Both the position numbers and the translations under genes were made by a program. Under the pieces are notes generated by a model that ran no database searches, was not told the DNA's origin, and saw only the letters and a program-made list of their open reading frames with translations. From Verrucomicrobiaceae bacterium (GTDB taxonomy: Bacteria > Verrucomicrobiota > Verrucomicrobiia > Verrucomicrobiales > Verrucomicrobiaceae), in NCBI GenBank assembly GCA_016795465.1, contig JAEUHK010000108.1, positions 1 through 64,000 of the forward strand: a stretch of DNA of 64,000 nt, in the 5' to 3' direction. Shown here piece after piece: positions 3,246 through 41,432 of the stretch. Each line of letters opens with the position of its first letter. Position 1 is the first letter of the stretch.

Positions 3246-3959
3246 ATGATTTCCCTCGGACGCCTTTTCCTCCCCCGCCGCTGGCATGAACGACTCCAGG
3301 TGGATCGCTACCCCATCCTTGCCTTTATCCGCCGAGAGGCGATCCCGCGGATGCGCGAAGGCATGAAGGTGCTCGATGCCGGCTCCGGCCGTCTGCCGGA
3401 GCAGACGCTGCGCGGCGAGATCTTGGCCACTGGAGCAGTGCTGCACACGCTGGATTTTTGCCCGGGCGAGGGCGTGGATTTCACGGGCGATGTCTCCGCG
3501 CTGCCCTTTGAGGAGGCCAGCTATGACATCGTGCTCTCCACGCAGGTGCTGGAGCATGTGCAGGACCCGCAAAAGGTCTGCTCGGAGATGGCGCGGGTGC
3601 TGAAGCCCGGCGGTCATCTCTTTCTGACCACGCCGCAGTCCTCACCGATTCACAACGAGCCGTGGAACTACTTCAATTTCACGCACTACGGCCTCACGCT
3701 GCTGTTTGAAAAGGCTGGGCTGCAGGTGGTGAAGAAGGAGGCGCAGGGCGGTCATTTCACGCAACTAGCCTTCCAGCTCCACTGGACGGCGCGGTATCTG
3801 CAGACCTGCGATGCGCCCAAAGTGATCAAAGTGCCGCTGCTGCTCGCGGCGAAGGTTCTGTTCGGATTTGTCACGAAGGTCCCCTTGCTGTTGCTGGACC
3901 GTTTTGACACGAAACGACTCAATACACAGGGCTGGAATTTCCACGGCACGAAGCCCTGA
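3246..3959 (+). CDS. SAM-dependent methyltransferase (type 11)
   Basis: A 237-residue protein with motif I LDAGSGRLPE near residues 43-52, the acidic GDVSALPFEEASYDIV stretch typical of methyltransferase type 11 domains, the VLEHV signature and a VLKPGGHLFLTTP segment. The C-terminal part is hydrophobic and basic, suggesting contact with the membrane or a lipid-linked acceptor. It follows the FkbM-like gene closely and precedes the sugar dehydrogenase/aminotransferase fusion by 33 bases. Methylation of a glycan or lipid carrier intermediate is a reasonable guess from context. Confidence 0.8.
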   Translation: MISLGRLFLPRRWHERLQVDRYPILAFIRREAIPRMREGMKVLDAGSGRLPEQTLRGEILATGAVLHTLDFCPGEGVDFTGDVSALPFEEASYDIVLSTQVLEHVQDPQKVCSEMARVLKPGGHLFLTTPQSSPIHNEPWNYFNFTHYGLTLLFEKAGLQVVKKEAQGGHFTQLAFQLHWTARYLQTCDAPKVIKVPLLLAAKVLFGFVTKVPLLLLDRFDTKRLNTQGWNFHGTKP

Positions 3960-3992
3960 GCATCAACTCCTCCTTTTTCTCATCCTCCCGGC

Positions 3993-6326: not shown

Positions 6327-7135
6327 TACGTCGCTTTAAAAAGCAGGTGAAGCATCTGCTGCGAATGTGCCGCCAGCCCTGGCTGACACGGCCGCGCCTG
6401 ACCGCAGAGCTGCGAAGGCTGGGTGTGCGTCCGGGTGGCGTGCTGCTGGTGCATTCGTCCCTTTCGAGCCTGGGCTTCGTTCCTGGCGGGCCGGCGGCGG
6501 TGATTGCCGCGTTGCAGGATGTGCTGGGACCGGAAGGCACGCTGATGATGCCAACTCATACTTGGGAGTGGATGAACCGCGGCCTGCGTGTCTTCAACGC
6601 CCGCTCCACGCCCGGCTGCGTGGGAGCGATCGCCGAGACGTTCCGCCAGATGGAGGGGGTGAGCCGGAGTTTGCATCCCACGCATTCCGTGAGCGCGAAA
6701 GGCCCGCGGGCGGCGGAGATGCTGGAAGGCCACGAAACGGCTGAAACGCCCTGCGGAGCCGGCACGCCCTACGCACGGCTGCTGGAGGCTGACGGACAGG
6801 TTTTGCTGTTGGGCGCCACTTTGGACTCCAACACGGCTTTTCACTGCATGGAGGCCCTTGGCGGCTATCCGGACCTGCTGAGGGTGGAGCGTGACGAGTT
6901 CGAAATCGTGGATTGGAACGGCGGGAGCCGCCGCCTGCGGGTCTCGCAGCAGCGTGAGGGCATCGTGCGGCGCTATCGGGCGATGCGTGAGCCCCTGCTC
7001 GATGCGGGCGCAGCCGTGGCGGGGCGTGCAGGCGGAGCGGAGCTGTTTTTGATGCACGGGCGGCGCTTTCACGAGGTGGTGAAGGAGTGGCTGCGGAAGG
7101 ATCCATGCCATCTGGTGGGGAAACAACCGGCCTGA
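6323..7135 (+). CDS. AAC(3)-family N-acetyltransferase, probably acting on an amino sugar
   Basis: A 270-residue protein of the aminoglycoside 3-N-acetyltransferase family, with the HSSLSSLGFVPGG segment (44-56) and the conserved HPTHS (118-122) that corresponds to the catalytic His region. The ATG at 6323 overlaps the upstream stop as ATGA; the longer in-frame ORF from 6245 is rejected because it lies inside the fusion gene. Members of this family are frequent in polysaccharide loci, where they acetylate amino sugars made by DegT aminotransferases; that role fits here far better than antibiotic resistance. Family assignment is firm and the substrate is inferred. Confidence 0.8.
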   Translation: MIRRFKKQVKHLLRMCRQPWLTRPRLTAELRRLGVRPGGVLLVHSSLSSLGFVPGGPAAVIAALQDVLGPEGTLMMPTHTWEWMNRGLRVFNARSTPGCVGAIAETFRQMEGVSRSLHPTHSVSAKGPRAAEMLEGHETAETPCGAGTPYARLLEADGQVLLLGATLDSNTAFHCMEALGGYPDLLRVERDEFEIVDWNGGSRRLRVSQQREGIVRRYRAMREPLLDAGAAVAGRAGGAELFLMHGRRFHEVVKEWLRKDPCHLVGKQPA

Positions 7136-7144
7136 CGACACACC

Positions 7145-8668
7145 ATGGGACTCGGAAAAAGCCTTCTGCGCGGCTCCGGCATGAACATGCTGGACTTGGT
7201 CGTGAAGACACTCGCCGTTTTCTTCACCACGCCCGTGCTGATCGCCTCGCTGGGCAAGGAGAACTATGGTGTGTGGCTGCTGGTGATGGCCGTGGTGGCC
7301 TACTTTTTAATGGCGGATCTCGGCCTGACCTTCGCCGCCACCCGGTTCCTGGCCATCGCGGTGGGGAAAAAGGACGAGGCGCGTCAGGCGGCGATCCGGC
7401 AGGTGTGTTTGCGCTACTACCGCATGGCCGCGGTCGTGGTGGCGGTGCTCATCGTGCTGCTGCTGCCACTGCTGCCGTGGCTCGCTGGCACGGACAAGGG
7501 AGCGGGGGAAATGCGGCTGGCCTTCATCCTGGCAGGTGGCGCGGTGGCGGCGCGGCTGTGCTTCCGCCTGCCGGTGATCCTGCTGCGGGCGCATGTGCGT
7601 TATGACCTCCAGGCGCTTGCCTCCACGGTGCGTGTGTTGGTGCAGTCCGGGACGCTGGTGCTGGTCCTGTGGCGTGGAGGAGGTCTCGTGGCGGTGGCGC
7701 TGGTGCAGGCTGGCGGCGAGTTTTTGGAATTGGTGCTGCAGGCGATGATGGCGGCACGTTTCCGGCCCGACGAGAAGGCGGAGGAGGCCATCGCGGACAG
7801 CGGATTGCGTGGCGAGCTGTTCCGTTACTCGCGTTCGATCGTCTTGGGGAACCTCGGGGACAGTGTGCGGCTGCAGCTCAACCCTTTGATGATCTCCAAG
7901 ATTCAGGGCGTGGAGGCGCTGCCGGCGTTTTCCATCGGCACGCGGCTCATCACGATCCTCGAGGATGCTGTGAACTCCCTTTTCGGCGGCCAGGTGCTCT
8001 CGGCCTTTGGTCAGATTCACGGGGCGGATGACACGCAGGCGCTGAGACGGCAGTTTTTGCGAATGGTGCATGTCACGACTGGCTTCGCCTCGGCAGCCAC
8101 GGTGGGCATGGTCATGGTGTCCGGTGCGTTTTTGCAGCGCTGGGTGGGGCCGGAGCTTCAGGATGCGCGCATGGTGCTCATGATTCTGGCCGGAGCCTAC
8201 GCGGTGCACTTTTCACAGTATCCGGCCTACAATCTGATGTACACCATCGGCCGGACGGACTGGGTGGTGCGCGTGTGCCTGTGGGGAGGTGGTGTGGGGG
8301 CGCTGGTGAGCCTGGCGCTCGGATTGAAGTTCGGCCTGTTTGGCGTGGTGGCGGGCACAGCCGCGGAAATGATCGTCTCGCGCGGGCTGGTGACCGCATG
8401 GCTGGTGGGGCGATGCATGCCGGTGGGCATGGCGGAGTATCTCGTCCGGCATGTGCTGTGGACGGCGGTGAAGGCCGCGGCGCTGCCCGGACTGGCTGGC
8501 GCCTTGCTGCTGCCGATGCTCACCCCCGAGTATCCGCGGATTTTCGCGTTTATCGCGATTTACGGGCTGGCAGTCACTGTTTCGTTTCCGTGGACGGTGC
8601 TCGATCAGGAGGGACGCAGCATGCTGTGGCGTCACTTGGGGCTGAGGCGGTCTCAGGCGGCCGGGTAA
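7145..8668 (+). CDS. Wzx-like polysaccharide flippase / MATE-fold exporter
   Basis: A 507-residue integral membrane protein with about 12-14 hydrophobic helices spread over its whole length. The opening (SLLRGSGMNMLDLVVKTLA...FTTPVLIASLGKENYGVWLL) is typical of the polysaccharide transport (PST/MOP) superfamily. It would flip an undecaprenyl-linked repeat unit across the inner membrane. It lies 9 bases after the N-acetyltransferase gene, so it probably shares its transcript, and its last 16 bases overlap the convergent acetyltransferase gene. Together with the polymerase-like genes at 17-20 kb it suggests a Wzx/Wzy-type pathway. Confidence 0.82.
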   Translation: MGLGKSLLRGSGMNMLDLVVKTLAVFFTTPVLIASLGKENYGVWLLVMAVVAYFLMADLGLTFAATRFLAIAVGKKDEARQAAIRQVCLRYYRMAAVVVAVLIVLLLPLLPWLAGTDKGAGEMRLAFILAGGAVAARLCFRLPVILLRAHVRYDLQALASTVRVLVQSGTLVLVLWRGGGLVAVALVQAGGEFLELVLQAMMAARFRPDEKAEEAIADSGLRGELFRYSRSIVLGNLGDSVRLQLNPLMISKIQGVEALPAFSIGTRLITILEDAVNSLFGGQVLSAFGQIHGADDTQALRRQFLRMVHVTTGFASAATVGMVMVSGAFLQRWVGPELQDARMVLMILAGAYAVHFSQYPAYNLMYTIGRTDWVVRVCLWGGGVGALVSLALGLKFGLFGVVAGTAAEMIVSRGLVTAWLVGRCMPVGMAEYLVRHVLWTAVKAAALPGLAGALLLPMLTPEYPRIFAFIAIYGLAVTVSFPWTVLDQEGRSMLWRHLGLRRSQAAG

Positions 8669-21657: not shown

Positions 21658-21900
21658 TCACTCCACCGCTTCCACTTTCGTCTTCGGCGGGGTGGCGGGC
21701 ACCGGGGCTGGGATGATGATGGGCTCGGCTGCCGGTGTGAGCTGCACCGCCGGGGGAGGCATTTGCTGCCAGTAAGGCATCGGCGGGCGCTCTGTCTGCG
21801 CTTTGATCAGCAGCCAGAAAAGAAAAGCCAGCACGACGGCCACCAGCTTCTCGCGCCAGTTGCGAACGAGCATGTTGCTAAACCGTGTGCCCCAGTTCAT
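21658..21900 (-). CDS. CdaR-like membrane stub downstream of cdaA
   Basis: An 80-residue protein with one N-terminal membrane helix preceded by NWREKLVAVVLAFLFWLLIK, resembling the first segment of CdaR/YbbR proteins. The rest is a Pro-rich tail with no YbbR repeats, so only the anchor is kept. The ATG at 21900 overlaps the end of cdaA by 23 bases. Its position directly after the diadenylate cyclase is where cdaR normally lies, so it may be a minimal regulator of CdaA. The 93-residue version starting at 21939 is less likely. Confidence 0.5.
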   Translation of the reverse strand: MNWGTRFSNMLVRNWREKLVAVVLAFLFWLLIKAQTERPPMPYWQQMPPPAVQLTPAAEPIIIPAPVPATPPKTKVEAVE

Positions 21901-22690
21901 GGCCCTCCTCCTTGTCTTTATTGGTCGTGGCATCGCCATTCACGTCACCAGCCAGGATTTCATTGATGCGCTGGCGCAGTTCCTCCGGTTCCAGGTCATG
22001 CTCCAGCTTTCCCTGGTAGCAAAGCGAGAGCGCACCGGTCTCCTCGGAAACGACGAGGGCGATGGCATCCGTCTCTTCGGTGATGCCCATGCCGGCGCGA
22101 TGGCGCAGGCCGATGGCACGATCCTGGATGTCGCGCTGGCTCACGGGGAAGACGCAGCCCGCACTGGCGAGGCGGCCCTGATCAATGATCACGCCGCCAT
22201 CATGGAGCACGGTCTTCGGATGGAAAATCGTCGCGATGAGCTCGGTGGAGATGGCCGCGTCGATCTCCACACCTGACTCGGCATACGGTTTGAGATCGAT
22301 GCCACGCTTCAACGCAAAAAGAGCCCCGCAGCGGCGCGAGGAGAGCTGCTGCATGGCTTCCATGAGCAGATCGAGCGCCTCGGGGTCCGGGCGGTTGAAG
22401 GAGAACATCCGGCTGCTGCCCAGCTCCGCCAGCACGCGTCGCAGCTCCGGCTGGAACAGCACCACCAGGGCGATGGCGAGGAAGACCGACACGCGTTGCA
22501 GCAGCCACGTGATGACCTCCAACTCCAGCAGCAGCGAGATCAACGCGAGGCTCAGCAGCAGGATCAACAAACCCGTCAGGATGCGGGCACCACGCGTGGC
22601 ACGGAAGAAAAGATACCCATGATACGCCAGCGCGGCGAGGATGAGGATCTCCACGCCGTCGCGCCAGTGCGTTGTCAAAAAGTCCCACAT
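21878..22690 (-). CDS. cdaA: Diadenylate cyclase (CdaA/DacA family)
   Basis: A 270-residue protein with three N-terminal membrane helices (about residues 15-80) and a cytoplasmic DAC domain that makes cyclic di-AMP from two ATP. The catalytic motifs appear as HDGG (163-166) and GLRHRAG (194-200). The RHR triplet (196-198) is intact, but the usual DGA is DGG and the usual GTRHRA is GLRHRA. Topology and length match CdaA rather than DisA. It is upstream of a shortened CdaR-like protein. The family call is strong; activity should be normal unless the Gly and Leu changes matter. Confidence 0.88.
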   Translation of the reverse strand: MWDFLTTHWRDGVEILILAALAYHGYLFFRATRGARILTGLLILLLSLALISLLLELEVITWLLQRVSVFLAIALVVLFQPELRRVLAELGSSRMFSFNRPDPEALDLLMEAMQQLSSRRCGALFALKRGIDLKPYAESGVEIDAAISTELIATIFHPKTVLHDGGVIIDQGRLASAGCVFPVSQRDIQDRAIGLRHRAGMGITEETDAIALVVSEETGALSLCYQGKLEHDLEPEELRQRINEILAGDVNGDATTNKDKEEGHELGHTV

Positions 22691-25697: not shown

Positions 25698-26474
25698 TCA
25701 CAACGGCCGCTTATACGCCTCGCAGCGGTTGTGCCAGCCGGCCAGCCAACGCTGCTCGCCGCGTTCGGGCGGGGAATTCGCCACGCGGCGGCTGAGGACG
25801 CGTTTCGCGGCCTCGGCAAAGGCGGCTGGGGTGCCGCCGCGCATGTCTTCGAGCACCTGCATGAGGCCCCAGCCCTGGCTGCGGTAGCGTTCTTTGGGAT
25901 TGGTGCCCTCGCCTTTGAAGTTTACGTAGTCGATCAGGCAAAACATCCCCTCCGGCGTGGTGCTCAGGGCTGCGAAACCACTCTTCGCCGCGCCGGTCAT
26001 GCTGCCGGAGGCTCGCTGAAGCCGCAGCATGATGTACTCGGTTTGCAGGCCCACGTTCGCGGCCAGGATCTTGCGCAGTTCGGCCTGCCGGGGGCCATTT
26101 TTATCCGCATCAAAAGCCCCTTTCGAGTCCCAAACACACGCTCCTTTGGTCCAGCCAGGCATCGGCACGCCGCGGGCCTCCAGATGACGGACGAGACCGG
26201 GAAAGCTCTCCTCAAACGGCCCGGTCCGCCCCGCCGGATACCAGATGAAATGCCCGATGCCGAGCGACGCGAAGTCCTCCCCGCCGTTCCAACTCGTCAG
26301 GCCCGCCACGGTGCCGGCGCACTCGTTTTGCCAGATGCGTCGGCCCACCCGGTCCATCTGCGCCGGGGTCAAACCGGCCTGCGCCGGGGGTAGCGGAGCC
26401 GCGCAGCCGAGCAAAAAGGCCGCTCCGGCCAGGGTGAGAAGCCATAAATCGCGCCGGTAACTTTGGGTGGTCAT
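25698..26474 (-). CDS. Lipoprotein with lysozyme-like fold (uncertain)
   Basis: A 258-residue protein with a lipoprotein signal: a hydrophobic stretch ends in LLGC at residues 21-24, so Cys24 would be lipidated. The segment RIWQNECAGTVAGLTSWN followed by FASLGIGHFIWYP is reminiscent of lysozyme-like glycoside hydrolases, with the Glu of QNEC as possible acid and the later GIGHF strand. The C-terminal half (YRSQGWGLMQVLEDM) is also conserved-looking. It may cleave or bind peptidoglycan or another glycan. I do not recognise a named family. Confidence 0.6.
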   Translation of the reverse strand: MTTQSYRRDLWLLTLAGAAFLLGCAAPLPPAQAGLTPAQMDRVGRRIWQNECAGTVAGLTSWNGGEDFASLGIGHFIWYPAGRTGPFEESFPGLVRHLEARGVPMPGWTKGACVWDSKGAFDADKNGPRQAELRKILAANVGLQTEYIMLRLQRASGSMTGAAKSGFAALSTTPEGMFCLIDYVNFKGEGTNPKERYRSQGWGLMQVLEDMRGGTPAAFAEAAKRVLSRRVANSPPERGEQRWLAGWHNRCEAYKRPL

Positions 26475-26631: not shown

Positions 26632-29600
26632 ATGCCGTATCTGGCCTTCAACCTCAACGATGGAAATGAATTCGTCTTCGACGTCCTCGAAGACCGTCTC
26701 ACCATCGGGCGTGACGGCAAGAACGACATCGTCATCGACAACACCTTCATCTCCGGCTTCCACGCCGAGTTCCTGAAGCAGCCGGACGGCTCCTACGAGC
26801 TGATCGACCTCAAGTCCTCCAACGGCACCTTCGTCAACGGCAAGCGCATCGAGCGCTCCCGCGTGAAGGGCGGCGACCGCATCATGTTCGGGCAACTGGA
26901 GAGCCGCTTCCGCGAGCGGGCCCCGAAGGGCCTCGCCCCCGTCGGCAGCTCGAAAGCCGTCTCCGCCTCCAAAAACGAGCCCCAGCGCATCGACGGTCGC
27001 CGGGGCGACACCGAAGGCATCCCCGCCCGTGACAAGGAGGACACGCCGCCGCCTTCGCCAGACACCGGGAAGATCGAGCCGACCAAGCCGGTCGTGCACC
27101 GCATGGCCACCTCGACGGGTGATGCGCAAAAATCCCCGCCCACGCCGCCACCGGCCCTCATCCCGAAGCCCGATCCCGCCGCTGCGAAACAAGCCGCCGA
27201 CCTCCGCGAGGAGATCGACAAGCTCCGCCAGCAGCGCGACGCCCTCAAAATCGAGGCCGAGATCGAGCAACGCCGCCGCGACGAATTGCGCAGCCTCGAG
27301 GCCACCCTCGAAGTCCGCAAAAAAGAGCTCACCGAGACCCAGGCCAGCCTAAGCAGCATCAAAGCCGATGCCGAGAAGCTCCGCGCCGAGGCAGACGCGG
27401 CGAAATCGGAAGCCGCCAAATTTGACCAGAAGCGCCGCGACCTCGGCAACCTCGAAAGCAAGCTCGACTCCACCCGCACCCTCGTCACCAAAGCCGAGGC
27501 CGATCTCGCCACCGCCCAGAAAGCCCTCGAAAGCATCCACAGCGCCGCCGAGGCCAAGCGAGCCACCGACACCGCCAGTGCCGAGCAAAAGCTCGCCGTC
27601 CTTCAAAAAGACATCGCCGCCGCCGAGGCCCGCCTCGCCGAGCTGACAAAACTCAAAGGCGATGCCGAGAAGTCGGAGTCCGAGCTCAAATCCAAGCGCA
27701 GCAGCGAACTCCAGGCCCTCGAATCGAGCCTCACCTCGAAGCAGGCCGAACTCGCCACCCTTGTCGCTCTTTTCACCGCCCGGAGCGCGGACGCCTCGTC
27801 CGCCGAAGCGAAGCTCCAGCAGCTCACCGCGCAGTCCAAAGCTCTCGAAGCCAAGCTCCCTGAACTCACCGCCGCCGAGCAAAAGCTGACCACGCTTCAA
27901 AAAGACATCGCCAGCAGCGAGTCACGCCTCACCGAGCTGACGAAGCTCAAAACCGACGCCGAAAAATCCGAGGCCGAACTCAAATCCAAACGCAGCGGTG
28001 AGCTTCAAGCCCTCGAAAAAGACCTCGCCGCCAAGCAGGCCGACCTCGCCAAACTCACCGAGCAGCTTTCCCTTCGGAGCGCGGACGCCTCGTCCGCCAA
28101 CGCCAAAGCCGAACAGCTCACCGCACAGCTCAAAGCCCTCGAAAGCTCCCTCGCGACAAAAACCGCCGAAGCCTCGTCCGCCGAAACGAAGCTCTCCAAA
28201 CTCACCACCGACATCTCGATGGCCGAAAGCCGCATCACTGAGCTCACTGCTCGGAAGGCTGACGCCGAAAAATCCGAAGCGGAGCTTCAATCGAAGCGTG
28301 GAGCCGAGCTGAAGGCCCTCGAAGCCGCGCTCACCGAGAAGCAGGCCCTGTTTGACCAGCTTACCAGCGCCGCCGCCGCCGCAGAAAAGAAGCTCGCGCA
28401 GCTCACCGAGCAGTCGAAAGCCACCGAATCGACCCTCTCGTCGAACATGGCCGAGGCGGCCGCCGCGAGCCGCAACCTCTCCAAACTCGTCGCCGACATC
28501 GCCACGGGCGAAAAACGCGCCGCCGAGTTCAAGGGCCTCGAAACCTCCCTCACCGCCAAACAGGCCGAGTTTTCAAAACTCAGCGAAGACGCCACTGCTG
28601 CCGAGGCGAAGCTCAAACAGCTCACCGAGCAGACCAAGGCCCTCGAGGCGAAGCTCCCCGACCTCAGCGCTGCCAACGAAAAGCTCGCAAAGCTCACCGC
28701 CGAAATCAGCGTCGCCGAGGCACGCGTCAAAGAGCTGGCCCAGCGCCGCACCGAAGCCGAAAAATCCGAGACCGAGCAAAAAACCAAACGCAGCGCCGAT
28801 CTCCAGGCCCTCGACCAGCAGCTCGATGCGAAACAATCCGAGCTCGCGAAGCTCACCGAGCAGATCACCAGCCGGACGAAGGAGGCTTCCGCCGCGGAAA
28901 CAAAGGCCAAGCAACTCACCGAGCAGACGAAGAGCCTCGAAACCAAGCTCGCCGACCTCACTGCCGCAGAGCAAAAGCTCGCCACGCTGACCAAAGACAT
29001 CGCCGCGGGCGAACAACGAGTCGCCGAACTCGCCAAGCTCAAATCCGAGGCCGAGAAATCCGAAACGGAGCTGAAGGCAAAGGGCAGCGCCGAGCTTCAA
29101 AAGCTCGACAAAGACCTCGCGAAGCTCACCGACGACCTCGAGGCCAAAAACGCCGCGTTCCAAAAAGCGCAGGAGCAGCTTCTCGACACGCAGCAGCGCC
29201 TCGCCCAGACCAGCGGCGAGGAAACAGCGCTCAAAGCCCGCGTTGAGGCGCTTCGCGGCAATGAGGCGAAGCTCGTCGAGGTCACGAAGCAGCTCGGCCA
29301 GATGCAGGATCAGCGTGGTGTGCTCGAAACCGCCATCGCGGCGCTTCTCGCCACGCAAACGACGCATCAAAAGGAGGTCGGCACCTCCGAGCAGCGCCTC
29401 ACCACGCTCCGTGCGGAGATCGATGATTTCACCGCGAAGCAGCAGACCGCGAAGGCGGAGCACGATCGCATCTGCAAAGAACGTGATGCCGCGCAGGCGG
29501 ACTTTGACGCGAAGCAAAAAGCCGCCGAAGCCAAGCTGGCCGAGCTTCAAAAACAAACCGCCGAAGCCCAGGCCAAGGCCGCCGAGGAACAGAAGAAGGC

Positions 29601-32600
29601 CGCGAAGGAGCGCGACGAACTCGATTTGCAGATCGAACTGCGCACCACGCGTTCGAACGATCTCGCCGCCCAGGTCAAAGCCCTCGAAGACAAGGCCGCC
29701 GACCTCGAAAACAAGCTTTCCGATCTCGCGGATACCGATTCACGCCTCAAAGACAGCAACGAGGCGCTCAAAGCCGTCGAATCGCACAAGGCGGAGGTCG
29801 TGGCCGCCGTGGCCGCGCTGGTCAAAGACCGCGACGAACGCACCCGCGAGCTTCTCGCCGCCACCGAGCATGGCCGGGCGCAGCATTTGCTCATCCAGAC
29901 GCTCACCACGCGTCGCGAGGCCGTCGAAAAAGAAGTCCGCACCATCGAGGACCAGCAGACCACCGCGTCGCAGGACCTCGGCAAGCTGCGTGCCGACATC
30001 AAGCAGGCCGAGACCGATCTCAGCGAGCGCCAGGCCCAGATCGCCACCGCGGATCAGCACCTCAAAAACGTGCAGGAACTCACCGCCACGGCGGAGACGC
30101 AGTTCAAGACCACGCAGGCCGAGGACAAGAAGCTCGCCGCGCAGGTCGCCGCCGCCAAAGGCGACCTGGAGCAGCTCACCGCGTCCATTGCGGAGAAGTC
30201 GAAGGAGCTCGCCGCATCCGTTGCCTCGCTGGAAAAGAATTCGCAGACCCACCTCACGCTCGCGGAGAAGATCAGCGGACTGGAAGCGGTCATCGCCACG
30301 CTCACGAGCACTCACGCCACCGCGCAGCAGAGCGTCGCAGCGGCGCAGTCCGATTATCAAAACCTTCAGGACAACCTCGCCGCCAGGCAGAAGGAGATCG
30401 CCAACGCCGAGAAACGCGTGGCCGAGCTGACCAGCCAGACCGCCGGCCTCGAAGATCGCCTCAAAGAGCTCAACCAGGCCAACAAGCAGCACGCTGAGCT
30501 TTCCGCCGCCATCACCGCCGCCACGCAAAATCGCGACAAGCTCGCCTCCGAGGCTCAACGTCTCACCAAGGAGCGAACAGACCTCGAAGCCTTGCTGCCG
30601 GATCTTCGTGGCAAGGTCGAGCAAACGCGTGCGCAGGCCCAAAACCTCGCCGACGAGCTGGCGGCCTTGAACAAGGACAAAACGGCTGCGCTTGATGCGA
30701 TGCAGCAGGCCGCCAAACAACGTCAGGAAGCGGAAACAGCGACCGAAGCGCTTCGCATCGAGGCTGCGAACCTCGAGAAGCTCCTCGGCGAAAAGCGCTC
30801 CACCTTGGATGCGGAGGTCAAAACGAAGCTCGCCGAGGCCAACGCGGCCGAAACACGCCTCAAAGGCTTGCAGGAGCGTGTCGTCGCTGGCGAAAGCCGT
30901 TTGAAGGAACTCGAAGACGTGAACGAGCGCCTTGCCGCCGCCACGACGAATCTCAAAGACACCGAGAAGACCCGCATCGCGGAAGAAAAGAACGTCGCCG
31001 CGCTCGGCAAGCAGCAGGACAAGCTCCGCATCGACCTCGCCAACCTCGAAGGCGAAATCAAAGCCGAGTCCGCGAAGCTGGCCGATCTCACCAAGACCTT
31101 CAAAGCCACCGAGACGAAGGCTGCCGATGCTGAGACGCGTCTTCAGAAGGCTCTCGCCGCCCAGCAGGCCGCCGAAAAGAGCCGCAACGAAGCGGATGCC
31201 AGCCTCGAGCTTGCCCGCACGGAGGAGAAAGCCCTCCGCAAACAGATTCCCGCGCTCAACACCGAGCTGGCTGGCATCCAGGCCGCGCTTTCCACCTTCA
31301 CGAAGCAGCGTGACGAGGCCTCGCAGTTCGTCACACGGCTGAACGTCACCACCGAGAATCAGAACAAGAAACTCGCCGAGCTGCAGCAGCAGATCGAGCA
31401 GCTCGAAGAGGCGCAAAAAGTCCGCGAGCAGCGTGTGATGAAGGCGCAGGAGGATGTGGACAAGGAAGGCCTCAAGCTCAAAGCCGCCATCGAGCAGACC
31501 CGCGCCGCGGAGGCCGCCCTCGCCGATGCCGACAAGGAATTGAAGGACATGCGGGCGAAGGTTTCCGCCACGAAGAAGGAGGCTGCCACGCTCGAGGATG
31601 AGCTGCGCACCCGCCTTGACCGCGTGCAGAACCTCAAGGCTGATGAGGAGCGCCTCACGAAGATCGTGGACAATCAAAAGCTCGACCTGCAAGGCGCCGA
31701 CAGCATGCTGAAGGAGCTGCAAAGCAAGATCGACAGCCACCAGACCCGCCTGAGCGACTTCATCCACGTCGGTGGAAAGATGCTCGGCCTCGGCGAGGCC
31801 ATCGCGAACCTCGAATCACGCCAGAGCGAGATCACGAAGGCCATCCGCAAGGCCTCCGAAGAAGATCTGGCCATCCAGGTGAAGCTCAATGCTGCTCAAG
31901 AGGCGCTCAATCGCGAGCTCACCCGCGCCGAGCAGGCTCGCAAGGACCGCGAGGCGGCCGAGGCGGAGTTCAAGAAGTTCAGCAGCGACATCCAGAAGCA
32001 GGCCGCCACGCTGCAAAACTACGAACTGGAGCAGAAGAAGCGCATCGCCGAGCTGGAGAAGCGCATCAACGACCACGCCGCCGCCGAGGCCCGCATCGTC
32101 ACGCAGATCGAGCAGACGAAAGCCGAGCTCACCCGCCTCGACGAGCAGCGCAGCGAGATGGCACGCGCCGAGGCGCAGCTCAAGCACTGGCAGGAGATCG
32201 AAAAGCGCCTCCGCGGCCAGCTTGGCGAACTCGAGGAGAAGCACGAGATCCTCCGCCGTGGCCTCGGCGCCGAGGAATCGACCGTGATCATGTTCGCCAA
32301 CGATTTGATCAAGCGCATCGACCTGATCGACGCGCTCAAAGAACGTTACGCTGGCGTGAATGGCGGCGTGGACATCGTCGCCCAGCTCGTGACGTTGCGT
32401 CAAAGCTTCGAGGACATTCTCCTCCAGCATGGCGTGAGCGAGTTCGAGGTTGCCTCCGGCACGGAAGTCGATGTCGAGCTGCGCAAGCGCATCGCCGTCG
32501 TGGACAGCACCCCGGGCAAGAACAAGCCCCGCGTCATCGAAAGCTGCCGCACCGGATTTGTTTACTCGCGAAGCGAAGGACACGAGGTAATCCTGCGGAA

Positions 32601-32628
32601 GGTCGAGGTCAGGACTTCCAGTCAATGA
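26632..32628 (+). CDS. Giant FHA / coiled-coil / GrpE-like protein
   Basis: A 1998-residue protein. Residues 1-95 are an FHA phosphothreonine-binding domain with IGRDGKND (25-32), SGFHAEF (41-47) and NGTFVNGKRI (64-73). A Pro-rich linker follows. From about 185 to 1890 the protein is an almost unbroken Ala/Glu/Lys/Leu coiled coil with repeats of about 98 residues. The last ~110 residues are globular: DLIKRIDLIDALKERY, then LRQSFEDILLQHGVSEFEV, then CRTGFVYSRSEGHEVILRKVEV. This order (L-D pattern, GV after a long helix, a 'GY...LR.a.V.V' strand end) resembles the GrpE nucleotide-exchange domain. An Hsp70 gene follows 176 bases later. FHA and coiled coil are firm; GrpE-like is by eye. Confidence 0.85.
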   Translation: MPYLAFNLNDGNEFVFDVLEDRLTIGRDGKNDIVIDNTFISGFHAEFLKQPDGSYELIDLKSSNGTFVNGKRIERSRVKGGDRIMFGQLESRFRERAPKGLAPVGSSKAVSASKNEPQRIDGRRGDTEGIPARDKEDTPPPSPDTGKIEPTKPVVHRMATSTGDAQKSPPTPPPALIPKPDPAAAKQAADLREEIDKLRQQRDALKIEAEIEQRRRDELRSLEATLEVRKKELTETQASLSSIKADAEKLRAEADAAKSEAAKFDQKRRDLGNLESKLDSTRTLVTKAEADLATAQKALESIHSAAEAKRATDTASAEQKLAVLQKDIAAAEARLAELTKLKGDAEKSESELKSKRSSELQALESSLTSKQAELATLVALFTARSADASSAEAKLQQLTAQSKALEAKLPELTAAEQKLTTLQKDIASSESRLTELTKLKTDAEKSEAELKSKRSGELQALEKDLAAKQADLAKLTEQLSLRSADASSANAKAEQLTAQLKALESSLATKTAEASSAETKLSKLTTDISMAESRITELTARKADAEKSEAELQSKRGAELKALEAALTEKQALFDQLTSAAAAAEKKLAQLTEQSKATESTLSSNMAEAAAASRNLSKLVADIATGEKRAAEFKGLETSLTAKQAEFSKLSEDATAAEAKLKQLTEQTKALEAKLPDLSAANEKLAKLTAEISVAEARVKELAQRRTEAEKSETEQKTKRSADLQALDQQLDAKQSELAKLTEQITSRTKEASAAETKAKQLTEQTKSLETKLADLTAAEQKLATLTKDIAAGEQRVAELAKLKSEAEKSETELKAKGSAELQKLDKDLAKLTDDLEAKNAAFQKAQEQLLDTQQRLAQTSGEETALKARVEALRGNEAKLVEVTKQLGQMQDQRGVLETAIAALLATQTTHQKEVGTSEQRLTTLRAEIDDFTAKQQTAKAEHDRICKERDAAQADFDAKQKAAEAKLAELQKQTAEAQAKAAEEQKKAAKERDELDLQIELRTTRSNDLAAQVKALEDKAADLENKLSDLADTDSRLKDSNEALKAVESHKAEVVAAVAALVKDRDERTRELLAATEHGRAQHLLIQTLTTRREAVEKEVRTIEDQQTTASQDLGKLRADIKQAETDLSERQAQIATADQHLKNVQELTATAETQFKTTQAEDKKLAAQVAAAKGDLEQLTASIAEKSKELAASVASLEKNSQTHLTLAEKISGLEAVIATLTSTHATAQQSVAAAQSDYQNLQDNLAARQKEIANAEKRVAELTSQTAGLEDRLKELNQANKQHAELSAAITAATQNRDKLASEAQRLTKERTDLEALLPDLRGKVEQTRAQAQNLADELAALNKDKTAALDAMQQAAKQRQEAETATEALRIEAANLEKLLGEKRSTLDAEVKTKLAEANAAETRLKGLQERVVAGESRLKELEDVNERLAAATTNLKDTEKTRIAEEKNVAALGKQQDKLRIDLANLEGEIKAESAKLADLTKTFKATETKAADAETRLQKALAAQQAAEKSRNEADASLELARTEEKALRKQIPALNTELAGIQAALSTFTKQRDEASQFVTRLNVTTENQNKKLAELQQQIEQLEEAQKVREQRVMKAQEDVDKEGLKLKAAIEQTRAAEAALADADKELKDMRAKVSATKKEAATLEDELRTRLDRVQNLKADEERLTKIVDNQKLDLQGADSMLKELQSKIDSHQTRLSDFIHVGGKMLGLGEAIANLESRQSEITKAIRKASEEDLAIQVKLNAAQEALNRELTRAEQARKDREAAEAEFKKFSSDIQKQAATLQNYELEQKKRIAELEKRINDHAAAEARIVTQIEQTKAELTRLDEQRSEMARAEAQLKHWQEIEKRLRGQLGELEEKHEILRRGLGAEESTVIMFANDLIKRIDLIDALKERYAGVNGGVDIVAQLVTLRQSFEDILLQHGVSEFEVASGTEVDVELRKRIAVVDSTPGKNKPRVIESCRTGFVYSRSEGHEVILRKVEVRTSSQ
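27706..29100 (+). repeat. In-frame ~294-base repeats in the coiled-coil coding region
   Basis: The words ELQALESSLTSKQAEL (27706), ELQALEKDLAAKQADL (28000) and ELKALEAALTEKQALF (28306) recur at spacings of 294 and 306 bases. A second set, KALEAKLPEL (27835), KALEAKLPDL (28633) and KSLETKLADL (28927), includes one 294-base step. The repeat unit is therefore about 98 residues and degenerate. It suggests growth of the coiled coil by internal duplication and could cause length variation between strains. Confidence 0.7.
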
Positions 32629-32764
32629 CGAAACCAGAATGACGAATGACGAATTAAACCCGAAATCCGAAGCCTGAATGCCATGAAAACACGCTCCAAT
32701 ACCTCCCGCCGCCCTTCCGGCTTCGTCATTCCTTCGTCATTCTGAATTCGTCCTTCGTCATTCC
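32624..32764. repeat. TGACGAA-type inverted repeat element
   Basis: The left part (32624-32655) has three copies of AATGACGAA-like words; the right part (32721-32764) has three copies of the reverse complement TTCGTCATT. About 65 bases lie between them. The left arm begins inside the stop codon region of the giant gene, whose TGA is part of the first AATGACG word. A fragment with similar words is present at 38278-38312. It fills most of the 176-base gap before the Hsp70 gene and could form a large hairpin in the transcript. Confidence 0.6.
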
Positions 32765-32804
32765 CCGCTCCGCCACCTTCCCGACTCTTAACCCACTCTC
32801 TCTT

Positions 32805-34295
32805 ATGGCTGAATACGTTGGCATCGATCTCGGCACGACCCTTTCGGGTCTCGCCTACCTTAAACCGGACGGCAATCCGGAAATCGTCCCCAATGCCGAT
32901 GGCGAGCGTCTCACGCCCTCCGTCGTCTTTTTCGACGCCCACGAGGATGTGAAGCTCGTCGGCTCCGCCGCACGCGATGGCGGGGAGCCGGACCGCACCA
33001 TCTTCCAGATCAAGCGCCACATGGACGACCCCGAGCATCTCGTGGAGATCGACGGCAAGAAGTGGACGCCTGCCGAGATTTCCGCGCTCATCCTTTCCAA
33101 GCTGAAGCGTGATTGCTCCAAAATCTGCGGGGACATCAACGAGGTGGTCATCACCGTGCCGGCGAACTTCAACGAACTCGCCCGCAAGAGCACCATCGCC
33201 GCCGCTGAAATGGCCGGCATGAAGGTGAAGCGCCTCGTGAACGAGCCCACCGCCGCCGCCGTGTATTACGCCCACTCGCAGGGCGTGAAGGGCCGCATCC
33301 TCGTCTATGACCTGGGCGGTGGCACGCTCGACACCACGATCCTCGAAGTCGAGGGCGATAACATCAAGATCCTAACCTCCGAGGGCGCCCGCCACCTCGG
33401 CGGCAGCAACTTTGACGACATCCTCCTCGAAGCCTATGCCGAGCAATACAAAAAGCAGACCGGCGCGGACCTGTATGCTGACGAACGCCATCGCCGCCGC
33501 ATCCTCCAGGCCACGGAAGATGCCAAAAAGATGCTCTCGAAACTTCAGCGGGTGAATGACACCGTCGCCAACGATCAAAACTCAGGCATCGCCCGCATCG
33601 ACCTCTCCCGCGATCACTTTGAGAAGATGATCCGGAACATGCTCACCCGCACCGTGCTGCTCGTCGAGCAGGCGCTGGACTCCGCTAAGCTCAAGGCGAG
33701 CGACATCGACCACGTCGTGCTCGTCGGCGGCTCTACCCGCATTCCGAAGGTGAAGACGATCCTCGAGAAAATGTTCGGCAAGACGCCGAAGAGCTGCGGC
33801 AACGTCGATGAATGCGTCGCCCTCGGCGCGGCGCTCTTTGCGAAGAAGTCCGCCAAGATCCAGGAAGTCTGCAACGCCAGCTACGGCACTCTCGCGATGG
33901 TTTACAACGCCAAGACGAAGGAGGAGAAGCTCATGAACTCCATCGTCATCCCGAAAAACTCTCCCATCCCCTGCTCCCGCACCCAGGTGTATCAGACCAG
34001 CGAGGACAACGAGCGCATCATCGAGGTCGATATCACCCAGGGCGAGGACGAGGACGCGAAATACGTCGATGTCATCGGCCGCATCACCCTCGACGTTCCC
34101 GCCGGGCGTGCGAAGGGCTGCGAGATCGCTGTGACCTTCAGCTACGATGAAAACCAGCGCGTCCGCGCGCTCATCGTCGATAAACAATCCGGCCGCAGCA
34201 AGGAGGTCGCCGTCTCTTACAAGGGAGCCGGCGTCCTCAGCGAGGAGGAGCTCAAACGCCGCAGCGCCCACCTGCGCACGATGCGCATCGAGTAA
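32805..34295 (+). CDS. Hsp70 (DnaK-like) chaperone with shortened C-terminus
   Basis: A 496-residue Hsp70. The ATPase domain is complete, with GIDLGTT (6-12), NEPTAAAVYYA, DLGGGTLDTTI and VGGSTRIPKV. The substrate-binding part is represented by the beta sandwich only (NSIVIPKNSPIPC... to the end), and the helical lid present in the ~640-residue DnaK is missing. It ends in RRSAHLRTMRIE. It follows the giant FHA/GrpE-like gene and precedes a small J-like gene, so it probably works with those two rather than as the main housekeeping DnaK. The family call is firm; the partnership is inferred. Confidence 0.92.
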   Translation: MAEYVGIDLGTTLSGLAYLKPDGNPEIVPNADGERLTPSVVFFDAHEDVKLVGSAARDGGEPDRTIFQIKRHMDDPEHLVEIDGKKWTPAEISALILSKLKRDCSKICGDINEVVITVPANFNELARKSTIAAAEMAGMKVKRLVNEPTAAAVYYAHSQGVKGRILVYDLGGGTLDTTILEVEGDNIKILTSEGARHLGGSNFDDILLEAYAEQYKKQTGADLYADERHRRRILQATEDAKKMLSKLQRVNDTVANDQNSGIARIDLSRDHFEKMIRNMLTRTVLLVEQALDSAKLKASDIDHVVLVGGSTRIPKVKTILEKMFGKTPKSCGNVDECVALGAALFAKKSAKIQEVCNASYGTLAMVYNAKTKEEKLMNSIVIPKNSPIPCSRTQVYQTSEDNERIIEVDITQGEDEDAKYVDVIGRITLDVPAGRAKGCEIAVTFSYDENQRVRALIVDKQSGRSKEVAVSYKGAGVLSEEELKRRSAHLRTMRIE

Positions 34296-34328
34296 CCCAG
34301 GACTCACGAACCCCGAAACCACGCTTTT

Positions 34329-34667
34329 ATGTTCAAGATCCTCAAATCCCTCTCGAAGTCCCTTAGCGGCAACAAACCTGCCGCCGAGGTCAAAAAGCCC
34401 GTCGAAGCCGCTCCCAAGGGCGGCGTGCTCGAACAGGTCGCCAAAGGCAAAACGCCCGCAGCGGCCCCGGCGAAGCCCAAAACCGCCGAGGAGCTCTGCG
34501 AAATCACCCCCAAGATGAGCAAGGACGAGATCAAAGCCCGCCTGAAGCTCCTCTTCCGCCGTTTCAACCGCGGCGCAAGTTCCCTCGACGCCAAGGTGCG
34601 CGAAGAAGCCGAGGTCATGCTTAACGCCGTTGTCGAAGTCCGCGAAAAGCACTTCGGCGAGCTGTGA
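34329..34667 (+). CDS. Small helical protein, possible J-like domain without HPD
   Basis: A 112-residue protein 33 bases after the Hsp70 gene. The first 50 residues are Lys/Pro/Ala-rich and look flexible. Residues about 54-112 (EELCEITPKMSKDEIKARLK, then LLFRRFNRG, then REEAEVMLNAVVEVREKHF) follow the helix order of a J domain: a short first helix, the 'S.DEIK..' start of helix II, and a helix III of the 'A...lN.a.ev' kind. The HPD tripeptide, needed to stimulate Hsp70, is not there (NRG at that place). It might be a non-catalytic J-like adaptor. I do not recognise a named family. Confidence 0.55.
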   Translation: MFKILKSLSKSLSGNKPAAEVKKPVEAAPKGGVLEQVAKGKTPAAAPAKPKTAEELCEITPKMSKDEIKARLKLLFRRFNRGASSLDAKVREEAEVMLNAVVEVREKHFGEL

Positions 34668-38349: not shown

Positions 38350-38925
38350 ATGCGCGGCGAACACGTTCTCATGGCTGCCCCGGACACCCTCTTCCTCGAA
38401 ACCCTTCAGCGCTACGAGCGGCCTCTCATCCGCTATGCGCACGGCTACACGGGCGATCTGGAGGAGGCTCGGGACATCGTGCAGGACGTGTTTGTGAAGC
38501 TCAGCCAGTCCCTCCACACCCTCGATCACGAGCGGCTGGCCCCCTGGCTCTTCACCGTCTGCCGAAACCGTGCACTGGACCACCAGCGCAAACACCGCCG
38601 CCTCGTCGTCATGGAAACTGAAACACTCGACCTCGAAATGTCCGCCGATCCCTCGCCGCATGAGGAGATGGACCGCTCGGAGACCGCCACCACGCTCCGC
38701 CAGCTCATCGATACCCTCCCTTCACGCCAGCAGGAGGCCGTGCGGCTCAAATTCATCGCCGGGTTGGACTACCAGCAGATCAGCGCCGCGATGAAAACGA
38801 GCATCGGCAATGTCGGCTACCTCATCCACCACGGCGTGGCCGCCCTGCGCACGAAATGGCAGGCCATGGAAAACGAAGCACCCGCCTCCGGAAAGGCACG
38901 CAGCCCCGCACTCGCCGCCGCGTGA
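38350..38925 (+). CDS. ECF-type RNA polymerase sigma factor
   Basis: A 191-residue sigma-70 family protein. Region 2 is YERPLIRYAHGYTGDLEEARDIVQ with the DIVQDVFVKL helix; region 4 is LPSRQQEAVRLKFIAGL plus the helix-turn-helix YQQISAAMKTSIGNVGYLIHHG. The ATG at 38350 is supported by a GGAGG 6 bases upstream; ATG 38371 is the alternative. The next gene starts with an anti-sigma-like domain, a usual arrangement for ECF pairs. The C-terminal ~15 residues are Ala/Pro-rich. Confidence 0.9.
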   Translation: MRGEHVLMAAPDTLFLETLQRYERPLIRYAHGYTGDLEEARDIVQDVFVKLSQSLHTLDHERLAPWLFTVCRNRALDHQRKHRRLVVMETETLDLEMSADPSPHEEMDRSETATTLRQLIDTLPSRQQEAVRLKFIAGLDYQQISAAMKTSIGNVGYLIHHGVAALRTKWQAMENEAPASGKARSPALAAA

Positions 38926-38960
38926 ACCGGAACCCCCAAACCTCCACCATCGAACCTTTT

Positions 38961-41432
38961 ATGAAACACGAACAGATCACCGCCTGGGCCCTCGACGAGC
39001 TGAGCCCGCAGGAACGCGAGCAGATCGAGGCCGCGCTCCGCGAAGATCCGCAGATCAAAGCCAGCGCCGAGGAAACCAAGTCCTTCTGCGACCTCCTCAT
39101 CACCGAGCTGCGGGATGAATCTCTCGAATTGACCTCCGAGCAGCGCTCCCGCCTCCAAACGATGCCGCCCGCCTCGAACATCATCGTGCCATCATCCACC
39201 TCGAAACCCGTGCGCTGGAGCTTCGCCTCCCGTTTTGGTTCACTCGCGGCTGCGGTGGCCTGCATCGGCATCGGTGGCTACTGGATGTATCCATGGCTCA
39301 TGCCGCAAAAGGAGCAGATCGTGGCGCAAGCGGTGGAGGAGGAGAGGATGTTCAGGGTGGGCCTGCCTGAGGTGAAACAGCAAGCAGCAAGCGGTGCCAT
39401 GGCCGATCCGAATAACCCGCTAGCAAAAAACTCACAGCAGTTACTTGGTGCCTTGAATGAGCCGTTAGGGGTACCACTGCCAGGGCTGGCGGCTGCCCCA
39501 GCCGCAGCGACCAAGCCCGACGAGTCGAACATCACGCTTAGCGGAGCCAATTCCTACTCTGGAGACACGACCGTCAATAGTGGCATTTTGATGGTCAGTT
39601 CAGGTGGCTTGGCTTCGAACAAGACAGACAGGCGACGTGAACTCAGTGGAGGGTCTATTGGTATTCAGTCAGCTGCGGGCAAAGTCCTTGCTGCCGAAAT
39701 GCCAGTAACTCCATCAGCTTCACCGAGGCCCGCAGCCGCTGAGAGTGGCTCTATAGTTGTCGGTTCATCCACATCTCCAGCCGTTGTTTTTCGGTCAGGG
39801 TCCATTGCCACGTCTGCTTCTGGGACAGGAGTCGCCAATTCGAACGGTTCGCGCATGGTTGTCGTTGAACCAACTTCCGAAGCTCCTGCCGAAAAAGAAG
39901 ACCCTCGACTTCAGGCTGCAATCAAGATGCTGTTCAGTCCTCCCAAGACCAACAACGAATCCTACACCCGCATCCTCGAAAACGAGCTCAAGGACGTGCG
40001 GGCCGAGCCGCTCTCGACCTTCTCGATTGATGTCGATACTGCGTCGTATGCCAACGTGCGGCGTTTCCTGAACCAGAACATGCTGCCACCGGCGGACGCG
40101 GTGCGCCTTGAGGAGCTCATCAACTACTTCCCCTCCGACGAGGAAGGTCCTGCGGCCGATGCGAAAGAACCTTTTGCGGCCCGCGTGGAGCTGGCGGCCT
40201 GCCCGTGGCAACCGCACCATCGCCTGGCTCGCATCGCGATTCAGGGGAAGCAGGTCCAAAAGGGCAGCAAGGCCAGCAACCTCGTCTTCCTCGTCGATGT
40301 CTCCGGCTCGATGGATGATCCGCAGAAGCTCCCGCTCGTGAAACAAAGCCTGCGCATGCTCGCCGAGCAGATGGGCGAGGGTGACCGCGTCTCGATGGTC
40401 ACCTATGCCAGCGGCACGCAGGTCGTTCTGCCGCCCACGAATGGTGAAAACCGTCCGCAGATCATCGCTGCGGTGGATCAGCTCAATGCTGGTGGCAGCA
40501 CGAATGGCGCAGGCGGCTTGCGGCTCGCTTACGAGCAGGCGGTGGCCGGTTTCATCAAGGAAGGCATCAATCGCGTCATTCTCTGCACTGATGGCGATTT
40601 CAACGTCGGCATCAGCGATCCCGGGGAGTTGGAAAAATTCATCGCGGAGAAGGCCCGCAGCGGCGTCTTCCTCAGCGTGCTCGGCTTTGGCAGTGGCAAT
40701 CTCAAGGACCGCACCATGGAAACCCTCGCCGACAAGGGCAACGGCAACTACGCCTACATCGACGGCCTCGCCGAGGCCCGCAAAGTGCTCGTCGAGCAGA
40801 TGGCCGGCACGCTCGTCACCATCGCCAAGGATGTGAAAGTGCAGATCGAGTTCAATCCCGCCAAGGTGCGTGCCTACCGCCTCATCGGCTACGAAAACCG
40901 CCTGCTCGCCAAAGAGGACTTCAACGATGACACGAAGGACGCCGGTGAGATTGGCAGCGGCCATCGCGTCGTTGCCCTCTACGAAATCGTGCCCGCCAAT
41001 CTGCCACCCGGTGTCGGTCCTGACCGTCTCGTTGATACGCTCAAATACCAAACGCTCGCCTCGCCCACATCGAAAGACCTCAACGAGGTCAAACCTGCCA
41101 CCGCCACCGCTTTGGATGCCGCCGCGAGCAAGGAACTCATGACCGTGAAACTCCGCTACAAGCAGCCCACCGGCGAAACGAGTTCGAAAATCGAGCTGCC
41201 CGTCACCGATGAAGGCAAGACGCTGGAAGCCGCCAGCGGCGAGTTCCAGTTCAGCGCCGCCGTGGCCGGTTTCGGCCTCCTGCTGCGTGATTCGAGCTAC
41301 AAAGGCACGCTGAACTGGGAAGCCGTGCGCAAGCTCGCCCTCGCCGGCAAAGGCACCGACAATCTCGGCTACCGTGGCGAGTTCCTCCAGCTCATCGACA
41401 AGGCCGCCGGCCTGAAGCAGACGAGGCGTTGA
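38961..41432 (+). CDS. vWA domain protein with anti-sigma-like N-terminus and PATR-like repeat
   Basis: An 823-residue protein. Residues 1-50 (ITAWALDELSPQERE) resemble the start of anti-sigma factors. A membrane helix lies at about 95-112. Residues 190-220 (NITLSGANSYSGDTTVNSG and following) match the autotransporter-associated beta-strand repeat. A YfbK-type vWF N-domain (SIDVDTASYANVRRFL) leads into a vWA domain with MIDAS DVSGS (D446), then a DUF3520-like C-terminus. The start at 38961 follows the sigma factor by 35 bases; the ORF from 38856 overlaps it and is rejected. It probably anchors an ECF signalling output at the envelope. Confidence 0.82.
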   Translation: MKHEQITAWALDELSPQEREQIEAALREDPQIKASAEETKSFCDLLITELRDESLELTSEQRSRLQTMPPASNIIVPSSTSKPVRWSFASRFGSLAAAVACIGIGGYWMYPWLMPQKEQIVAQAVEEERMFRVGLPEVKQQAASGAMADPNNPLAKNSQQLLGALNEPLGVPLPGLAAAPAAATKPDESNITLSGANSYSGDTTVNSGILMVSSGGLASNKTDRRRELSGGSIGIQSAAGKVLAAEMPVTPSASPRPAAAESGSIVVGSSTSPAVVFRSGSIATSASGTGVANSNGSRMVVVEPTSEAPAEKEDPRLQAAIKMLFSPPKTNNESYTRILENELKDVRAEPLSTFSIDVDTASYANVRRFLNQNMLPPADAVRLEELINYFPSDEEGPAADAKEPFAARVELAACPWQPHHRLARIAIQGKQVQKGSKASNLVFLVDVSGSMDDPQKLPLVKQSLRMLAEQMGEGDRVSMVTYASGTQVVLPPTNGENRPQIIAAVDQLNAGGSTNGAGGLRLAYEQAVAGFIKEGINRVILCTDGDFNVGISDPGELEKFIAEKARSGVFLSVLGFGSGNLKDRTMETLADKGNGNYAYIDGLAEARKVLVEQMAGTLVTIAKDVKVQIEFNPAKVRAYRLIGYENRLLAKEDFNDDTKDAGEIGSGHRVVALYEIVPANLPPGVGPDRLVDTLKYQTLASPTSKDLNEVKPATATALDAAASKELMTVKLRYKQPTGETSSKIELPVTDEGKTLEAASGEFQFSAAVAGFGLLLRDSSYKGTLNWEAVRKLALAGKGTDNLGYRGEFLQLIDKAAGLKQTRR

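Follow-up and report, generated by a model that had tools for sequence, protein, structure and literature searches.

A gene cluster in Verrucomicrobiota encoding an FHA–coiled-coil–GrpE protein, a lid-less Hsp70 and a J-like small protein

The window analysed here was a stretch of 64,000 nucleotides from a Verrucomicrobiaceae bacterium (positions 1 to 64,000 of contig JAEUHK010000108.1). Three adjacent genes on its plus strand encoded a 1998-aa protein with an FHA domain, a coiled-coil rod and a GrpE domain (26632..32628), a 496-aa lid-less Hsp70 (32805..34295) and a 112-aa J-like protein (34329..34667). The initial annotation had described these genes as a possible dedicated chaperone system; its gene positions, the FHA domain at the start of the giant protein, the GrpE-like C-terminus and the missing Hsp70 lid were all upheld. 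Chance adjacency of the three genes was rejected by orthologous, mostly adjacent genes in dozens of genomes, and both ends of the 1998-aa protein were conserved in its orthologues (loci L006–L049 and L142–L161).

FHA domains are phosphothreonine readers. The FHA domain of the window protein (residues 24–87; 26701..26892, plus strand) matched Pfam PF00498 at 9e-20, and the phosphothreonine-site residues R27, S41, S63 and N64 were all present. In an alignment of 24 rows, the R and S were conserved in nearly all and the N in most. On sequence grounds, the protein belongs to the FHA family with the phosphothreonine-site R, S and N, and phosphothreonine binding is predicted.

The rod (residues 181–1835; 27172..32136, plus strand) was delimited by heptad periodicity and composition. 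Its hydrophobic periodicity was 3.45–3.55 residues in nearly all 70-residue windows, its composition was Ala- and Leu-rich and of heptad type, and only 5 prolines occurred in 1655 residues. Within the rod, a 294-bp (98-residue) unit was repeated in tandem, with 1.9 copies (27580..28143, plus strand), as detected by TRF and by protein autocorrelation, which peaked at a lag of 98 residues, equal to 14 heptads. The coiled coil suggested initially was confirmed by this periodicity, its length being about 1650 residues. If it formed one continuous coiled coil, the rod would be ~245 nm long (1655 × 0.1485 nm).

The very long rod, taken at first as a key feature, was not a constant one. In total length, the shortest FHA–GrpE proteins were those of L146 (276 aa) and L145 (294 aa) and the longest that of L033 (2388 aa), and at L145 and L146 the FHA domain almost abutted the GrpE domain with hardly any rod between them. 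Because this length was so variable, the rod is taken as a spacer and not a ruler, and it is dispensable to the layout. A structural scaffold, in which the rod would be an envelope or cytoskeletal filament or spacer, the GrpE domain a dimeric cap and the Hsp70 an actin-fold remnant, would suit a very long Ala-rich heptad rod, and the rod profile weakly resembled the crescentin rod and SMC coils, a likeness usual for coiled coils. Yet the nearly rodless L145 and L146 kept the FHA and GrpE domains, the Hsp70 and the small gene, and the ATPase residues and SBD-beta of the Hsp70 were conserved (see below); we regard a scaffold as improbable.

The last 160 residues of the protein (32146..32625, plus strand) formed a GrpE domain of helices and a beta-domain. 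PF01025 was matched with 27.6 bits by the whole 1998-aa protein and 31.1 bits by the last 160 residues (cut-off, 25.8), and at E ≤ 1 by 27 of 30 homologues. An AlphaFold model from the 30-homologue alignment had a pLDDT of 92, and a Foldseek search of the PDB with this model returned GrpE as all of the top eight matches (E 1e-5 to 0.03, probability 0.99–1.00). In VIA, five GrpE entries gave Z 11.8–12.6, against 8.3 for the best non-GrpE chain; the best of them, 1dkg_A (Z 12.6), was aligned over 146 residues with an rmsd of 14.8, the long helices being bent differently. By sequence, the profile of the GrpE end matched PDB GrpE weakly (4ani, E 0.21). The beta-domain alone matched a canonical GrpE profile (E. 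coli and relatives) at E 1.8e-6, and none of 200 column shuffles scored as high.

GrpE searches of 19 whole genomes, with 6–24 candidates each, recovered canonical GrpE, the FHA-rod C-terminus and few others; beyond these two, two or three extra GrpE matches were found, in G015 alone. Canonical GrpE (130–167 bits) was present in all 19, and in most genomes of the same genus the FHA-rod protein came second. Coiled-coil noise as the cause of the GrpE match was excluded by this search together with the beta-domain-only profile test. As modelled, the C-terminal domain is a genuine GrpE fold, with long helices and a C-terminal beta-domain; it belongs to the GrpE sequence family PF01025, and exchange activity is predicted for it.

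The product of the second gene matched PF00012 with 352 bits and consisted of an NBD, an SBD-beta and a stub of helix A, as judged by Pfam, alignment with E. coli DnaK and orthologue lengths. D8, T11, K70, E171 and T199 (E. coli DnaK numbering) were retained in the alignment, so it is predicted to have an actin-fold ATPase domain with its catalytic residues. The SBD-beta was complete, and the protein stopped some 15–20 residues into the first helix. All orthologues lacked the helical lid (lengths, 493–518 aa) and every one of them terminated at the same position, which ruled out a truncated or frameshifted gene. The hydrophobic VLLLD linker of DnaK was not conserved: its site in the window protein was occupied by the divergent interdomain linker SAKIQEVCNASYG (33849..33887, plus strand, by alignment), and most orthologues had EVCN.SYGT. 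Phylogenetically, the order's lid-less Hsp70s grouped in one clade separate from the DnaK of the same genomes (support 99/98); the tree had long branches, and the placement of far members in it is uncertain. Its features class the window protein as an Hsp70 without a lid and not a canonical DnaK. Pairwise identities of the lid-less Hsp70s followed those of DnaK (Spearman 0.82; mean 69% vs 83%) and therefore point to mainly vertical inheritance.

The small protein was an ORF whose orthologue lay beside the Hsp70 gene wherever the contig permitted. It began with a basic amphipathic helix, MFKILKSLSKSL (34329..34364, plus strand), a candidate membrane-binding element with a hydrophobic moment of 0.55 vs 0.25 in shuffled sequences (p 0.008); of 32 homologues, 20 had such a helix at p<0.05. 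In the AlphaFold model the middle of the protein was of low confidence and the core (last 60 residues) had a pLDDT of about 90, with one short helix followed by a helical hairpin. This J-like helical core (residues 51–112; 34479..34664, plus strand) was defined by AlphaFold, Foldseek, profile register and alignment. The best Foldseek match of the core was the Tid1 J domain (E 0.71), and most of the first 14 were J domains (E about 1–3). In a profile alignment with J domains, helix II was in register and ended at the HPD site; hhalign gave E 0.005, and two of 200 shuffles were as good, a modest significance.

HPD itself was absent, the site reading YNR, HNR or WN with the N invariant; in the window protein, N80 sat at the proline of the J-domain HPD. 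Because HPD is missing, the protein is called J-like here instead of being classed with the J-domain proteins, and it could not stimulate the ATPase in the textbook way. The J-like nature that the initial annotation had thought possible is suggested by the fold, while the hallmark motif was not found. The protein might instead be a helical-hairpin adaptor and no J protein, the module then having no J partner or borrowing the housekeeping DnaJ. This would agree with the missing HPD, with the lack of any Pfam match to the small protein and of any Pfam J match in 32 members, and with the VIA scores of the core, which were Z 5–6 to J domains and equally to ribosomal L29 hairpins, so that the structure score is common to other hairpins. 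A plain hairpin would account less well for a short helix before two long ones, for a substituted site placed exactly at the HPD position and for J domains as the leading Foldseek matches.

A relative of the small protein from another class bore further on this. DjlA is a membrane-anchored co-chaperone with the order TM–TerB–J. In G369, a gene at L229:4007-5161 encoded an N-terminal hydrophobic helix, a TerB domain (Pfam 4.6e-12) and the same J-like C-terminal domain, and its only NCBIfam match was DjlA (2e-4). In G303, the J-like domain was the end of a membrane-anchored protein. Both genes lay immediately downstream of lid-less Hsp70 genes. The kinship of the small protein to J domains is suggestive, and the DjlA-like architecture of the G369 relative is the stronger argument for it. 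We consider it likely that the small protein is a degenerate, membrane-bound J protein, and the adaptor reading rather unlikely.

Orthologues of the lid-less Hsp70 were defined by a score of at least 690 bits when the gene was not cut off, canonical DnaK scoring at most 266. They were found in 71 of 142 genomes of the order, as was the small gene; the two occurred together in 69 (Fisher 3e-35). A match to the profile of the C-terminal GrpE domain was present in 62 of the 71 Hsp70-bearing genomes (Fisher 1e-16), mostly as FHA–rod–GrpE, a count that takes in some short proteins other than FHA fusions; both Fisher tests ignore the kinship of the genomes. The co-occurrence in other Verrucomicrobiota that the initial annotation had raised was thereby borne out. 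The gene order FHA–GrpE, Hsp70, small gene was conserved in families f1, f3 and f6, and the rod gene adjoined the Hsp70 gene in 37 of 42 judgeable loci; in the non-adjacent cases looked up (G093, G100, G122 and G137), it was on another contig. The module was absent from all sampled f2 genomes, many of them small, and was rare outside the order, where it turned up in one further genome out of 286 from the class and in one or two out of 387 from the phylum. The source genome also encoded canonical GrpE and DnaJ (contig C45) and DnaK (C27), and the conserved module occurs in genomes that have the canonical set as well.

The three genes were not inseparable. The C-terminal GrpE domain had homologues in 14 of 76 genomes without the lid-less Hsp70; about six of these were true or likely FHA–(rod)–GrpE proteins of the module's family (found in G060, G007, G017, G108 and G105/G130), the rest being mostly shorter stand-alone FHA–coil–GrpE proteins. 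G017 retained FHA–GrpE between the neighbours seen in G021, read as polyprenyl synthase and radC, and G060 retained FHA–rod–GrpE by the lysozyme-like neighbour seen in G033; in each, the Hsp70 and small genes were both gone. Since they were lost together with the neighbours kept, the Hsp70 and the small protein appear to act as a pair. The exchange factor can outlive this pair, and would then be either decaying or serving DnaK. The initial annotation had expected a C-terminus like GrpE in structure and FHA genes regularly accompanied by the Hsp70 gene; the former was found, but FHA–GrpE homologues without the Hsp70 do occur.

These losses could be explained if the FHA–rod–GrpE protein served the housekeeping DnaK as a targeting exchange factor and the other two proteins, the lid-less Hsp70 and the J-like one, were a separate pair in a shared operon. 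The persistence of FHA–(rod)–GrpE without the pair, a second, stand-alone FHA–coil–GrpE family in f3 and a tighter linkage of the Hsp70 gene to the small gene (69/71) than to the GrpE domain (62/71) speak for such a division. We nevertheless consider it unlikely, as adjacency and order were maintained in three families over large distances, and DnaK is already served by the canonical GrpE found in every one of the 19 whole genomes.

Variant loci were also recorded. The stand-alone FHA–coil–GrpE proteins of f3 (about 530–675 aa) had no Hsp70 neighbour (L211:5658-7631, minus strand; L235:1483-3171, minus strand; L209, about 3843-6291, plus strand, broken by a run of N). Among f4 genomes, G051, G055, G059, G066, G070 and G032 had the Hsp70 and no homologue of the C-terminal GrpE domain by profile search. 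In G018 and G076 an FHA-rod protein was found with GrpE not present, and at L195:7647-10874 and L196:7131-10265 (minus strand) an FHA-rod gene without a detected GrpE end lay upstream of the lid-less Hsp70 gene. L208:4193-5544 (minus strand) of G110 was a single 335-aa ORF in which FHA was followed by half of GrpE and the terminal part of Hsp70; a deletion or an assembly error is the probable cause. The distant locus of G303 had a GrpE-like gene (weak, Pfam 0.01), a lid-less Hsp70 gene and the gene of the TM protein with the J-like end, in this order. That of G369 had two lid-less Hsp70 genes followed by the TM–TerB–(J-like) gene; the tandem Hsp70s were very similar, and the region (L229:2843-8359, minus strand) also held an M48-peptidase-like gene and lay near a putative type I restriction gene. 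L193 (G015:C46:142000-153000) was a further extra Hsp70 locus: at about 4346-7448, separate from the canonical set, genes matching DnaJ and GrpE and one for an Hsp70 of ~660–690 aa adjoined one another.

The neighbours of the module were constant within a family and differed between families, with a lysozyme-like gene in f1, a putative cysS in f3 and a putative polyprenyl synthase and radC in f6; because they differ, they name no client. In the window, the lysozyme-like secreted protein (25698-26474, minus strand) had no Pfam match, and its gene adjoined the FHA-rod gene in divergent orientation in many f1 members. Elsewhere in the window were a CdaA-type diadenylate cyclase gene (21878-22690, minus strand; Pfam DAC 3e-36) and, at 38350-41432 (plus strand), a sigma-70 family factor gene followed by that of an 858-aa protein in which vWA and YfbK_C domains are combined with a passenger-transport repeat (PATR) barely above cut-off, an odd mixture. 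PADLOC matches to LmuB, JetC and similar proteins were rejected as coiled-coil noise.

A defence or conflict module was weighed by comparison with the GAP1-N2 GTPase conflict systems. These systems carry extra Hsp70, GrpE and DnaJ gene sets, and some of their Hsp70s lack the peptide-binding domain (PMC7159879). The accessible text on them describes no FHA–GrpE fusion. The module had no recognised GTPase, tubulin or effector gene nearby, and it was near-universal in its family and vertical, its identities tracking those of DnaK. We regard a defence role as very improbable.

The module resembles the canonical DnaK–DnaJ–GrpE machine in its GrpE fold, its Hsp70 NBD and SBD-beta, its J-like fold and its three-component logic. 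It differs in that it is additional to the canonical set, its GrpE is fused to FHA by a rod, its Hsp70 lacks the lid and the VLLLD linker, and its J-like protein lacks HPD and has a basic amphipathic N-terminus. Specialised Hsp70s beside a housekeeping DnaK, tied there to a particular envelope process, are known from the dedicated DnaK1/DnaJ3/GrpE set of cyanobacteria, which shares the one ordinary GrpE (PMC9239167), and from SglK and StkA of Myxococcus xanthus (PMC8265645, PMC4319316); no FHA domain or rod is described on their exchange factor. The distant G369 relative matches the TM–TerB–J order of DjlA with a J-like domain in the last place, but the HPD site reads WN, YNR or HNR, and the window protein has only the amphipathic helix and neither TM nor TerB. 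Pam16/Tim16 is a degenerate J-like protein regulating a membrane Hsp70 motor (PMC3806816); unlike the module, in which no second J protein was seen, Pam16 pairs with the HPD-bearing Pam18. A literature search for FHA with GrpE, or Verrucomicrobia with DnaK and FHA, returned no paper with such a layout among openly licensed papers, in keeping with the first impression that the layout was undescribed, and the accessible text of the papers found on related Hsp70 systems described no targeting domain on an exchange factor. Dedicated DnaK/DnaJ/GrpE sets were already known, and the module reads as a variant of them.

On balance, we favour a dedicated Hsp70 machine beside the housekeeping DnaK/DnaJ/GrpE, with a phosphothreonine-steered exchange factor and mostly vertical descent in one order of Verrucomicrobiota. 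The steering, the clients and the Hsp70–GrpE pairing are those we infer, and the domains make phospho-regulation and anchoring plausible. GrpE dimerises via long N-terminal helices. By sequence and structure prediction, GrpE is covalently joined to FHA via a coiled coil that ranges across homologues from 0 to about 2100 residues, and the rod may be a parallel extension of the paired N-terminal helices of the GrpE dimer. The far tip would then carry two FHA domains and the opposite end the exchange head, up to about 245 nm away in the window protein by the rise per residue. The small protein, on the inner membrane, would dock the lid-less Hsp70, which would grip a client segment weakly and exchange quickly; fast binding and release, and a drive unlike that of DnaK, would be expected because the Hsp70 has no lid and a changed linker. 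Binding of FHA to a threonine-phosphorylated protein would deliver exchange activity there, and the Hsp70 cycle would turn over at the kinase-marked place, the outcome being a kinase-addressed conformational or assembly switch and not bulk folding. We put forward only tentatively the full scheme, in which a Ser/Thr kinase mark recruits the exchange step, on a coiled-coil arm as long as about 300 nm, to a lid-less Hsp70 docked at the membrane, and in which the altered J partner of this Hsp70, with its new, conserved signature of N for HPD, couples to the altered linker and so gives a different ATPase drive.

Hsp70 specificity is usually attributed to J proteins. In the module it is the exchange factor that bears a targeting domain, the J-type partner is without the hallmark motif and the Hsp70 has lost both lid and linker. 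The module would offer a conserved natural experiment on which parts of Hsp70 a working cycle requires, and it is small, present in cultured relatives such as Brevifollis gellanilyticus (L025) and testable in vitro. For the biology of these bacteria, it may be a direct link from Ser/Thr phosphorylation to chaperone action.
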